A DNA stretch of 64,000 bases from Verrucomicrobiia bacterium (GTDB taxonomy: Bacteria > Verrucomicrobiota > Verrucomicrobiia > Verrucomicrobiales > Akkermansiaceae), in NCBI GenBank assembly GCA_947462875.1, contig CANHQJ010000001.1, forward strand, positions 124,001 to 188,000. Direction: 5' to 3'. Positions within the stretch are counted from its first letter, which is position 1. Each line of letters begins with the position of its first letter. The notes beneath the pieces were generated by a model, which was not told where the DNA came from, searched no databases, and saw only the letters and a list, made by a program, of their open reading frames with translations. The translations under genes were made by a program, and so were the position numbers. Positions 23,039 through 28,576 of the stretch are shown here, in pieces.

Positions 23039-24978
<1,940 letters not shown>

Positions 24979-24981
24979 GCT

Positions 24982-25671
24982 TTAGTATAACGCCGGTGAG
25001 GTCGAGATTTGTCTGTGTCGATGACGGAATGCCAGGGCTGCGGCAACGGCTGTGGCCAGCGCGATCAGTTGATAGCCGGAGAGTCCGAGGAAAGGCTTGG
25101 GAGTGGCGCGGAGGAATTCATGGCTGAAGCGAAAGATGCCATAGGCGATGAGAAACACATGAAAGTGCTGCGTAGGCCAGCGGTGTTTGGCGCGCAAGAG
25201 CAGCAGAAACAACAGCATCAGTGCGAGAAATGCCATTTCCACCTCCACCGCCGGCCAGCGACCTTGCGGGGTGACGATGCCGAGGCAGCAACCCGCTTGC
25301 AGGCAGCCGATGCGCCCGAGCATGAGGGGCAGCGGCAGAGTGATGGCAAAACGATCGCCGGTGATGCGAGGGTAGCGCAGCGATTTTTTCGCGATTTCCA
25401 CGCCGATCCAGCCGCCGGGCAGCGCACCCATGACCGATTTGCCCGTGAGCCAGAGTGTCCAGCGCTGGGGGTGATCGAAATACAGCCAGCCCTCCGCCAC
25501 AAGATAGGCGATCTTCGCCCCGAGAAGTCCGCCGATCAGGCCGAATCCATACAAGTAGAGCAATTGATGATCCGTCCGCGCCGCACGCCACCAGAGAGCG
25601 ATCCCGACCAAGACGCCGAGGATGGCGAAGAGTTGATAAAGCGGCGAGGCGTTGGAGAACGGAAATGGCAT
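24982..25671 (-). CDS. divergent prolipoprotein diacylglyceryl transferase (Lgt)-like protein
   Basis: The 229-residue polytopic membrane protein resembles Lgt, which moves diacylglycerol from phosphatidylglycerol to a lipoprotein cysteine. Seen: several helices, GGLLGAKIAY, SVMGALPGGWIGVE (matching the Lgt GG.SFHGG-like region only loosely), GRIGCLQAGCCLG (the family usually has GRxGNFxNxE) and YGIFRFSHEFLRAT near the end. It is shorter than typical Lgt (260-330 residues) and the signature changes are large, so another phospholipid-dependent transfer is possible. It is in the same operon as the radical SAM and PDZ genes. Confidence 0.7.
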   Translation of the reverse strand: MPFPFSNASPLYQLFAILGVLVGIALWWRAARTDHQLLYLYGFGLIGGLLGAKIAYLVAEGWLYFDHPQRWTLWLTGKSVMGALPGGWIGVEIAKKSLRYPRITGDRFAITLPLPLMLGRIGCLQAGCCLGIVTPQGRWPAVEVEMAFLALMLLFLLLLRAKHRWPTQHFHVFLIAYGIFRFSHEFLRATPKPFLGLSGYQLIALATAVAAALAFRHRHRQISTSPALY

Positions 25672-25680
25672 CGCTTTTCC

Positions 25681-26097
25681 TCAATAAGACGCCACCGCCA
25701 TGCAGGCGCCTACGAGCAAAAAGGAGAGCGCGGGGACTAACAGGATTTGATACGCGAAGAAGCGAAGACCATGTAACAAGATCAGCTTCTGGCGTTCCGA
25801 AGGCGATGCCACGATGGTGCTGGGTGAAAAGAATCCATCAAAGCAGCCGATGCCGAACGTGAGGCCGATGACCAATACGCCGAACAGTGTCAGCCCGACA
25901 TAATCCGGTGCCGAACGAAATACCGCGTTAGTGAAATAAGCTACGGCAAACGCGATGGCATAGAAGAGAAAGGTAGGCATGCACCAGACGATCAGGCGGA
26001 AGCACCCATGTGGGCGCCGCTGCGGGGACAGCGACGCGGCGGCAGCGGCTTCCGCTTCGATCTCCAGGGCGGAGCGTTCGGGAGGTTGTTCTAACAT
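25681..26097 (-). CDS. small membrane protein, paralogue of the 28166-28576 protein
   Basis: The ATG at 26097 overlaps the end of the radical SAM gene by seven bases and gives 138 residues. After a short acidic, Ala-rich N-terminus come three to four transmembrane helices. Its first helix (RLIVWCMPTFLF) and last segment (FFAYQILLVPALSF) correspond to QLIVFLMPTMVA and FFIVQVFVLPLAIT in the 28166-28576 protein, with similar spacing, so the two are paralogues. No family name is recognised. Its tight coupling to the radical SAM and Lgt-like genes hints at a membrane role. Confidence 0.7.
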   Translation of the reverse strand: MLEQPPERSALEIEAEAAAAASLSPQRRPHGCFRLIVWCMPTFLFYAIAFAVAYFTNAVFRSAPDYVGLTLFGVLVIGLTFGIGCFDGFFSPSTIVASPSERQKLILLHGLRFFAYQILLVPALSFLLVGACMAVASY

Positions 26098-27443
26098 GAC
26101 GATGAGGGTTGTGGGGAATAGTAGCGGCAGAAGGAATCCAGTTTTCCATCGGGCCTGATGACGTGGGTGCAGCAGCGGTCGATGCGATCCTGATCCCAGG
26201 TCCATGAATCCATGAACGGCTTGATGAACAAGCGGAAGGCGTCTTTTTCTTTCATCTCGAAACGATGCAAAATGTCGCCGAGCTCGGTGTTTTCGCAACC
26301 GCACTGAATCAGATCGGCGAGCTCGTAGCGGACCTTGTCGCGCAGGAAGCCCTGCACGCTGGCGAAATCGATGAACTCGGAAATGCTGCGAACACCGATC
26401 GGAGTGCGCAGCAGGTAGCCGATGGTCGCACAGTTCGGATCGCCGCAGGGCAGGGGGGTGAAGTCCTCGAAACGCAGTCGCCCTTGTGATTGCCCCACAC
26501 TGCCGAGGATGATATCGGCAGTATTGAGAATGGCCGTTTCCTCTAACGCATTTCGCCCCGAGCGAAACATCGGCTGAAACGAAACGCCGCGACAGGCCTG
26601 GAAACCGAGTCCCACCTCGATGGTCGCGCCGAGGTGCGGCAGGTTGTGATCGGTGACGGTCATGGCCAGGGTGAAGGGAATTTTTTCCGCTTCACATCGT
26701 TCCATCGTGAGTTGCTTCATGGTTCGCAGATCACTGCCGCGCAGTTCTTTCTGACCCGCTTCCTGTGGGCCGTCGTATTGCAAATAAAGCTGCAAGTGCC
26801 CGCGCCGCGCCCGTTCGCCGAGCTGCTGGAGAAAGGCGTCTTCTTTCGCGATGCGCACGCCGTTGGTGTTGACGAGGCAGTAGTCGATGCGCGGTTCGTC
26901 ATGAATCCAATCGAGCAAGCGGAAAAACTCCGGGTGCAGGGTCGGTTCGCCGCCGGAGAGTTGCAAAATTTCGATGCGCCCCTTGCGGTCGAGCACGCCA
27001 CGAATGCGGGCGATCAGGGAATCGAAAGGATGATCCTTGAGTTTTGCGGCGGAGGCACCAACGGGAGAATCGGCAAAACACGTGGGACATGCGAGATTGC
27101 AGGAATCGACAATCTCGATCAGCGCGAGGCAGGTGGAAAGCACCTCGGTGCTGGAGTCCGTGGGATGAGCGTTTTTGCCCAGAGTGCCATCGATGCCACC
27201 CCCCGCCGAACAAGCGCACCCCGCGCCACAACTGTTCGAAGGATTTCCTTGTGCCAGCCAATAGAACCGAGCATCGCTGGAAATGCACACCGTGGTCTCC
27301 CCATGATCCGGGCAAGTGCGGGAGAGATACACTTTCGCGGGAGTGCCCGTGGTTTTCCAGACCTCCCCCGGCACGTCGTGATGACACGATGGACAGCGTG
27401 TCAGCGTGTGCTTGAGAGTTTGTTTCAGGGAGGTCAGGGACAT
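26091..27443 (-). CDS. radical SAM protein of the MJ0619/tetraether-lipid-synthase type
   Basis: The 450-residue protein has the radical SAM motif CNLACPTC (Cys115, 119, 122) and the SAM-binding segment LQLSGGEPTLHPEF. Features of the archaeal MJ0619/Tes group are also visible: an N-terminal rubredoxin-like region (Cys17, Cys20, Cys44 in TCPDHG), LQYDGPQE, QPMFRSGR, PLPCGDPNCATIGY and the C-terminal FIKPFMDSWTWDQDRIDRCC...FCRYY. Known members couple lipid chains or modify lipids, using auxiliary Fe-S clusters. An extra Cys-rich insert (CGAGCAC, 72-78) is present. It is the first gene of an operon with a small membrane protein, an Lgt-like and a PDZ protein, which supports a membrane-lipid role. 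The substrate is unproven. Confidence 0.85.
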   Translation of the reverse strand: MSLTSLKQTLKHTLTRCPSCHHDVPGEVWKTTGTPAKVYLSRTCPDHGETTVCISSDARFYWLAQGNPSNSCGAGCACSAGGGIDGTLGKNAHPTDSSTEVLSTCLALIEIVDSCNLACPTCFADSPVGASAAKLKDHPFDSLIARIRGVLDRKGRIEILQLSGGEPTLHPEFFRLLDWIHDEPRIDYCLVNTNGVRIAKEDAFLQQLGERARRGHLQLYLQYDGPQEAGQKELRGSDLRTMKQLTMERCEAEKIPFTLAMTVTDHNLPHLGATIEVGLGFQACRGVSFQPMFRSGRNALEETAILNTADIILGSVGQSQGRLRFEDFTPLPCGDPNCATIGYLLRTPIGVRSISEFIDFASVQGFLRDKVRYELADLIQCGCENTELGDILHRFEMKEKDAFRLFIKPFMDSWTWDQDRIDRCCTHVIRPDGKLDSFCRYYSPQPSSSC

Positions 27444-28165: not shown

Positions 28166-28576
28166 TCAGAATAAAGCTGCGAGGAAGAAGGCGAGGATGG
28201 TGATGGCGAGGGGGAGGACAAATACTTGGACAATAAAAAAGTGGATGCTATGCCACAACAGTGCCCCCCTGCGTTTGGGGGCGGTGCTCGGATGGGCGGC
28301 ATCGTAGATGCGCGCGTGAACATAGCCGAGGGCGAAGATTGTGAGGCCGAGGGCGATGAAATACCCGAGAGCGATCCAGTCGCCATCGATCTGATAACGG
28401 GCGATCCAGGGCAAGCGCTGGATGATGGCGATGAAACCAGCGCCGCAGGCTGCCACCATCGTGGGCATCAAGAACACGATCAACTGATACCAGCGCAGGG
28501 AGCGATTGGCGGGCGGCAATTCTGGCTCCTGAGGTGCGATCAGGGGTTCTGATGGATCTGATGATTCTGTGGGCAT
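28166..28576 (-). CDS. small membrane protein, paralogue of the 25681-26097 protein
   Basis: Starting at the ATG at 28576, the 136-residue protein has a Pro/Glu-rich N-terminus and about four transmembrane helices. Matching helices at both ends (see the 25681-26097 entry) show common ancestry with the membrane protein next to the radical SAM gene. A longer frame to 28648 is open, but its extra residues would run into the upstream palindrome. Function unknown; divergent from the coiled-coil protein gene. Confidence 0.7.
   Translation of the reverse strand: MPTESSDPSEPLIAPQEPELPPANRSLRWYQLIVFLMPTMVAACGAGFIAIIQRLPWIARYQIDGDWIALGYFIALGLTIFALGYVHARIYDAAHPSTAPKRRGALLWHSIHFFIVQVFVLPLAITILAFFLAALF

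Follow-up and report, generated by a model that had tools for sequence, protein, structure and literature searches.

Eukaryotic C-terminal prenylation with ICMT and sorting of the MYXO-CTERM type both place a lipid on, or carry out processing at, a cysteine near the C terminus of a protein. The two enzyme families that concern us here are known from other settings. One contains the tetraether synthase of Methanocaldococcus jannaschii (Tes, or GDGT-MAS; MJ0619; structures 7tol and 7tom), a radical S-adenosylmethionine (SAM) enzyme that takes lipid chain ends into hydrophobic pockets. Bacterial homologs of Tes are listed, and proposed to act in the synthesis of branched glycerol dialkyl glycerol tetraethers (GDGTs), in two papers (PMC8941075, PMC11868695), and PMC9433317 reports both that Met439 and Tyr459 are completely conserved across 1,000 archaeal homologs and that M439A, Y459F, and Y459L variants are still active. 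The other family is that of Lgt, the lipoprotein diacylglyceryl transferase; according to PMC4728403, R143 and R239 form its catalytic centre and the lipobox binds at the HGGL region. In the current study, we analyzed a 64,000-nucleotide stretch of DNA (the window; positions 124001 to 188000 of contig 1, CANHQJ010000001.1, in the 3.95-Mb assembly GCA_947462875.1) from a Verrucomicrobiia bacterium of the family Akkermansiaceae. It carries a run of genes that encodes a relative of each of these enzymes together with a small membrane protein ending in a lipobox-like cysteine, and which may constitute a module for C-terminal protein lipidation.

Results

Four minus-strand genes of the window were confirmed to lie in one tight run, encoding a radical SAM protein (RS), a 138-residue membrane protein, an Lgt-like protein, and a PDZ protein. 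The close spacing described in a first-pass annotation made from the letters of the window alone holds (a 7-nt overlap, then gaps of 9 nt and 3 nt), and the coupling of RS to an Lgt-like gene that it proposed proved genuine, with much stronger support (80 loci, 316 genomes) than it could have known. A scan of a genome collection returned 189 relatives of RS, and 80 were kept for locus analysis. An Lgt-like open reading frame (ORF) was present on 72 of these 80 loci, in 71 on the same strand as RS. The eight remaining loci comprise five with less than 1.2 kb of sequence after RS and three that are longer (L087, L097, and L140); L097, from Haloferula rosea and apparently from the same assembly as genome G277, retains its Lgt-like gene on another contig. 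Because homologs at 54 to 91% identity keep RS and the Lgt-like gene together, the pairing is not due to chance. The same holds when whole genomes are compared. Strong matches to RS (>300 bits) and to the Lgt-like protein (>290 bits) fall in the identical 6 genomes of 288 from the phylum, and matches to both fall in the identical 8 of 38 near-relative genomes; combined, 11 of 316 distinct genomes have both, with no exception either way (Fisher P = 1.5e-20, a value that ignores relatedness).

The next-best RS proteins of the phylum (G091, G050, and G159), which are 27 to 30% identical to that of the window, also adjoin an Lgt gene and a small membrane protein of the kind described below. Named relatives of RS come from Verrucomicrobiota records, those with Akkermansiaceae and Verrucomicrobiaceae names being nearest, plus one labelled by its depositor as a “delta proteobacterium”; the module was found in records named Haloferula luteola, Luteolibacter marinus, Roseibacillus persicicus, and Chthoniobacter flavus. 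In the RS tree, proteins with an Lgt neighbor are spread over several deep, poorly resolved lineages, and the association must therefore be either old or re-made. In two distant modules (L072 and L073, from G050 and G159), an ICMT/PEMT-like methyltransferase gene lies between RS and Lgt; one speculation is that it would fit a CaaX-like processing of the end group. Locus L044 (contig 13 of G313), where what remains of RS is interrupted by a stop and the genome lacks an Lgt-like match, is a case of module decay.

The third partner is a set of small membrane proteins, here termed tail proteins, whose genes sit between RS and the Lgt-like gene or upstream of RS, mostly within about 120 nt. They are fast diverging and have three transmembrane helices, the last of which terminates in a lipobox-like [G/A]-C, with about 5 to 13 residues after it; the proteins that carry this tail vary widely in length, from 59 to 368 residues. 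Neither Pfam nor NCBIfam has a family that covers them, and a Pfam search with the 138-residue protein of the window returned zero matches. We assembled 132 such proteins from 81 loci, picking them by hydrophobicity and not by cysteine content, apart from three added by hand from the list of matches to a tail hidden Markov model (HMM). A Cys occurs within the last 20 residues of 118 of the 132 (41% expected at the Cys frequency of their remaining sequence) and [G/A]-C in 86 (11% expected), and at least one tail-Cys protein is found in 73 of the 81 loci. After filtering for coding potential, the tail Cys is present in 92 of 107 proteins versus 5 of 21 distant small membrane ORFs of the same loci, and the [G/A]-C pair in 63 of 107 versus 0 of 21; this control set is small and may retain some false ORFs. 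An early control gave a weaker contrast (18/22 versus 40/77; P = 0.014), included antisense ORFs, and is superseded by the later ones. Tandem copies are frequent, with four between RS and the Lgt-like gene in L076 and four, each with the Cys, upstream in L114.

Around the last helix, Lys and Arg total 217 in the preceding loop and 37 after the helix, a bias shared by 70 of 72 proteins (the other two tie). By the positive-inside rule, this places the tail Cys, as a prediction, at the periplasmic end of a helix running from inside to outside. The predicted geometry is that of an N-terminal lipobox, but at the C terminus: a small residue followed by Cys at the periplasmic end of a helix, as a lipobox has, is what the tail proteins display. 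The 72 proteins of this alignment (A2) were selected from the 118 for having a tail Cys, so its invariant Cys column is partly circular. Some tail proteins have zinc-ribbon-like stretches at the N terminus; the best-matching family, DZR, is found in 8 of the 72 at E up to 0.1. We rejected the idea that the tail is a genome-wide sorting signal; in the genome of the window, the tail profile finds the module protein and one Cys-less relative, and the four other matches, all weaker, seem to be unrelated proteins (three were inspected). That relative lies upstream of RS and of an unrelated 153-residue ORF, and might represent a copy that has decayed or been repurposed.

One NCBIfam model, NF058595 (“lipo-invert putative C-terminal anchoring domain”), gave a weak match to the tail protein of the window (17.3 bits, E = 0.0046, below the cut-off of 37). 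We rejected the view that this model describes the tail proteins; it matches 1 of 72 at E up to 0.1, and control genomes also give weak matches. None of the 288 Verrucomicrobiota genomes has a match above its cut-off, and none of six tail proteins from other phyla matches at E up to 0.01.

The Lgt-like protein matches the Pfam family LGT (E = 8.3e-21; 74.8 bits against a gathering cut-off of 24.9) and stays below the NCBIfam equivalog cut-offs for Lgt (best 60.2 bits against 334). Its predicted structure (mean predicted local distance difference test score [pLDDT], 94.3) matches a single PDB entry with E no higher than 0.001, that of E. coli Lgt (5azb; E = 4e-5; template modelling [TM] score, 0.61). 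The fold is thus shared, as are the equivalents of R143, E202, Y235, R239, E243, and R246, which are kept in 69 to 72 of the 72 family members (numbering by the 5azb alignment). Unlike E. coli Lgt and the housekeeping enzyme, the Lgt-like protein lacks the HGG histidine, has Cys at the positions of N146 and E151, and is tied to RS and tail proteins. With the R143/R239 network kept and H103 gone, the enzyme seems preserved on its donor side and altered on its acceptor side. A separate, complete-looking housekeeping Lgt, with HGG and the signature motif visible, is encoded elsewhere in the same genome (G000, contig 13). The family alignment (A3) holds 42 of 73 Lgt-like proteins.

We compared these with 20 Lgt loci of other Verrucomicrobiota (L205 and 19 of L207 to L226; 2.4 to 3.7 kb each) that have no known RS neighbor. 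Their proteins carry a GRxGC...NGCC signature like that of the Lgt-like protein, and 17 of the 20 also lack HGG. Within these short loci, no convincing tail-Cys protein adjoins any of the 20; candidate ORFs in L212 and L224 were judged spurious. Cys in the Lgt signature was therefore rejected as a hallmark of the module, since GCC-type Lgt occur without RS and the RS-linked Lgt of G050 and G159 keep Asn.

RS is related to Tes, as the first-pass annotation had recognized, and the radical cluster, rubredoxin-like N-terminal cysteines, and late CC segment that it reported are all real (C17xxC20...C44xxH47, C115xxxC119xxC122, and KPFMDSWTWDQDRIDRCC...C439). Pfam matches are to Zn_ribbon_HMPTM (4e-11) and Radical_SAM (7.5e-9). 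A sequence search of solved structures returned 7tol/7tom as the sole relative at E up to 0.01 (E = 3e-29). The AlphaFold2 model (51 sequences; mean pLDDT 80.8, with residues 70 to 96 and 366 to 385 poor), the structure prediction that had been proposed as a check, matches 7tom/7tol best and across the full length (TM scores of 0.75/0.68; E about 1e-30), followed by SkfB (4e-10). In our alignment (A4: 48 main-clade and 3 distant RS, omitting L100, which has a stop inside its stretch), C115, C119, and C122 of the CX3CX2C motif are present in 48 of 48 main-clade rows, as are C17, C20, and C44 of the rubredoxin-like CX2C...CX2H motif (H47 in 46) and the C-terminal CC...C.

Membership in Tes in the strict sense, which that annotation had also suggested, did not survive. 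The best NCBIfam score of RS is to TrsS, a radical SAM (seleno)protein (NF045646; 190.6 bits over a full-length alignment, against a cut-off of 490), and the Tes model (NF045702) gives 134.9 bits against 450; both models match all 51 RS homologs tested, and neither cut-off is reached by RS. RS shares with Tes the zinc-ribbon/rubredoxin-like N terminus, the radical SAM core, the C-terminal FMD...RCC.H...FC segment, and the fold. It differs in its linkage to Lgt and tail proteins and in two features of sequence. The motif CX3CX2CX2H of the N-terminal auxiliary cluster (C73, C77, C80, and a His in Tes) is degraded (CGAGCAC in the window; among main-clade rows, C72 in 41/48, C76 in 18/48, and C78 in 45/48, with the Tes spacing absent), and Lys and Val occupy the positions aligned to Met439 and Tyr459 in all 48 main-clade rows. 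Metal-ligand positions were transferred through 7tol alignments that omit the stretch between 7tol residues 338 and 458. Since M439A and the Tyr459 variants stay active, the replacements count more against membership in Tes than against a similar chemistry. RS thus belongs to a broader family of zinc-ribbon radical SAM proteins, of which Tes and TrsS are also members, and is not Tes itself. Selenocysteine in RS, which the TrsS match had brought to mind, was rejected: the single in-frame TGA, in L040, is an ordinary stop after the C-terminal motif.

The module is also found outside Verrucomicrobiota. Ten records of a plasmid collection contain an RS relative, and six were examined. In Mycobacterium branderi, Mycobacterium avium, Nonomuraea, and Persicobacter, an Lgt gene lies beside RS, and a tail protein accompanies all four of these RS-Lgt pairs. 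The tail proteins end ...LSGGLCTGLNPADYAG and ...TVGVCTGLNPAMYTGA in M. branderi, ...TAGICTGLNPAMYTWR and ...SAGYCTGLNPSDYRSY in M. avium, and ...SAGICTGINPSLYG in Nonomuraea; that of Persicobacter has 59 residues and ends ...GTGICGSLLS. The RS relatives of Mycolicibacterium and Halorarius adjoin a SAM methyltransferase gene, and their loci hold neither an Lgt gene nor a credible tail protein. We also observed transposase genes near the module on both the M. branderi and the M. avium plasmid (L236 and L237), whose tail proteins share a C-TGLNP ending.

The features of the window are collected in Table 1. The PDZ protein, which the first-pass annotation had counted with the gene set, matches a DegP-like PDZ domain (residues 67 to 213), has a coiled C-terminal part, and gave no match to a protease. 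A PDZ homolog lies near RS only in the window and in 1 of the 80 related loci (L079), and we rejected both the PDZ gene and a GAPDH gene as parts of the module because their adjacency to RS is not conserved. The module of the window contains neither a protease nor a methyltransferase gene. Apart from RS, Lgt, and tail proteins, no cluster of neighboring ORFs covered more than 20 loci, and many of these small clusters consisted of reading frames that overlap or run antisense.

Table 1. Features of the locus, in window positions
Feature	Position	Strand	Basis
Radical SAM protein (RS), 450 aa, Tes/TrsS-related	26091..27443	-	Sequence, profile and fold matches
RS cluster motif C115xxxC119xxC122	27078..27101	-	Invariant, 51/51 rows of alignment A4
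RS C-terminal auxiliary-cluster segment, residues 408-439 (KPFMD...CC...C)	26127..26222	-	48/48 main-clade rows; aligns to 7tol residues 459-490
Small membrane protein with three transmembrane helices (tail protein), 138 aa, presumed substrate	25681..26097	-	ATG at 26097; 7-nt overlap with RS stop
Tail Cys132 codon (FLLVGAC-MAVASY), lipobox-like C-terminal site	25702..25704	-	Tail-Cys statistics; A2 alignment
Lgt-like integral membrane protein, 229 aa	24982..25671	-	9 nt after small membrane protein gene; Pfam LGT, fold match
Lgt signature region G119RIGC123LQAGC128C129LG131	25279..25317	-	R120, C123, C128, C129 in 72/72 family members
PDZ protein, 240 aa, co-directional neighbor outside conserved module	24256..24978	-	3 nt from Lgt-like gene
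Second small membrane protein of tail family, without tail Cys	28166..28573	-	Tail HMM E 2.3e-6; profile A2 E 1.9e-6

Discussion

Through this analysis, the module itself, the linkage of its genes, the tail Cys, the topology bias, the kept residues, and the folds were established by computation. Our favored interpretation, to which we give about an even chance, is that of a three-part bacterial lipidation module in which an Lgt paralogue dedicated to the membrane proteins of the module attaches lipid to a Cys at their C terminus, with RS modifying the lipid chain. The substrates would be the small three-helix proteins, with a last helix that passes from cytoplasm to periplasm and ends in [G/A]-C and a short tail, in a local geometry like that of a lipoprotein signal peptide. 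Retaining the residues that bind and cleave phospholipid, the Lgt-like enzyme would transfer a diacylglyceryl group from a phospholipid to the tail Cys, and RS, cytosolic and with the Tes fold, would abstract hydrogen from a lipid chain, altering either the donor lipid or the protein-bound chains, e.g., by joining chain ends. Judged from the conserved catalytic residues and the topology, the tail Cys is probably lipidated. If it is, then RS, in a weaker step, rather probably acts on lipid chains and not on the peptide, for two reasons: RS has the fold of an enzyme whose hydrophobic pockets accept chain ends, and these ends are found at the membrane midplane, while the Cys is across the membrane from RS. 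A protein-bound lipid is favored over a bulk lipid because the conserved third partner is a set of small membrane proteins with a C-terminal Cys. In this regard, the pointer of the first-pass annotation toward lipid anchors stands, and bulk synthesis of membrane-spanning lipids is not supported. A bolder form, in which at least three phyla make C-terminal lipoproteins whose diacylglyceryl group, added by the Lgt paralogue, is joined at its chain ends to inner-leaflet lipid by the Tes-like RS to give a membrane-spanning anchor, seems unlikely to us.

Several observations weigh against the proposed lipidation. H103 of the HGGL motif, which is essential in E. coli Lgt, is absent from all 72 Lgt-like proteins (Leu in 55, Pro in 14, and Ile in 3), so that binding of the acceptor must differ or the activity itself may differ, and Cys in the Lgt signature cannot serve as a marker of the module, since GCC-type Lgt genes also occur without RS. 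Fourteen of the 132 tail candidates lack a tail Cys, four of them encoded between RS and the Lgt-like gene (L081 3227, L082 3799, L082 5440, and L086 3712); the second tail-family copy of the window (28166) also lacks it, and 8 of the 81 loci yielded no tail-Cys protein. For RS to act on the Cys itself, the steps would have to follow a different order, as the Cys is predicted to be periplasmic and RS cytosolic. Finally, the linkage of RS and Lgt could partly reflect shared ancestry, the RS tree being poorly resolved at depth.

Other readings of the same genes must be weighed against this one. RS could be a bacterial Tes that joins fatty-acid chain ends into membrane-spanning lipids, with the Lgt-like and small membrane proteins as accessories. 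Its kinship with Tes in fold and sequence, its retention of the radical SAM motif, the rubredoxin-like motif, and the C-terminal CC...C, and the proposal of such a role for bacterial homologs by Zeng et al. 2022 (PMC8941075) all speak for it. We nevertheless consider it quite improbable, the 134.9-bit score being far from the 450-bit Tes cut-off and Lys and Val standing in 48 of 48 rows where Tes has Met439 and Tyr459 (although, according to PMC9433317, M439A, Y459F, and Y459L remain active). It would also leave the linked Lgt and the tail Cys unexplained, and RS relatives occur on plasmids of haloarchaea too, which PMC8941075 describes as making archaeol only.

Two further readings concern the tail proteins. 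They might be membrane subunits or redox partners of an RS/Lgt-like complex, their Cys serving as a metal ligand or disulfide partner and not as a lipid acceptor. Radical SAM enzymes require electrons, zinc-ribbon-like stretches (DZR, 8/72) are found at the N terminus of some tail proteins, and the Lgt-like proteins of Verrucomicrobiota have invariant Cys near the active site. However, the retention of the tail Cys by fast-diverging tandem copies (four in L076 and four in L114) fits substrates better than fixed subunits, and the tail occurs on proteins from 59 to 368 residues long; we find this reading unlikely. Alternatively, the tail proteins may be membrane-bound precursors resembling ribosomally synthesized and posttranslationally modified peptides (RiPPs), in which RS would introduce a radical modification (a cross-link or methylation) into the C-terminal segment before lipidation by the Lgt-like enzyme. 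RiPP maturases typically show this arrangement, with small partners in multiple copies next to the radical SAM gene, and lipidation of RiPPs by the N-terminal lipoprotein route is reported in PMC12636315. Yet the closest fold to RS is that of a lipid-tail enzyme and not of a SPASM peptide maturase (7tom, 1e-30, versus SkfB, 4e-10), and the conserved part of the partner is a single Cys at the predicted periplasmic end of a helix, away from the cytosol. We consider this reading rather improbable.

We rate the proposed lipidation module as new as a system: it is previously unlisted and is composed of two known enzyme families. In the literature searched, which covered few subscription papers, we found neither the pairing of RS with Lgt nor C-terminal lipidation by Lgt, nor the term “lipo-invert.” The NCBIfam name itself shows that a curator has thought along similar lines about some C-terminal domain, although the NF058595 model does not describe the tail proteins; if “lipo-invert” proves to be the same system elsewhere, the module would become a variant of it. 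From eukaryotic prenylation with ICMT and from MYXO-CTERM sorting, the module differs in its lipid donor and enzymes, and the G050 and G159 modules carry an ICMT/PEMT-like gene.

If the favored reading is true, these bacteria would possess a route for attaching lipid to the C terminus of membrane proteins, one that combines a lipoprotein enzyme with a relative of archaeal Tes. The numerous Tes-like genes of bacteria are at present regarded as possible synthases of branched GDGTs; one group of them would then be given a different job, and the role of bacterial Tes relatives would become testable in the cultured strains that carry the module and on the Mycobacterium plasmids.

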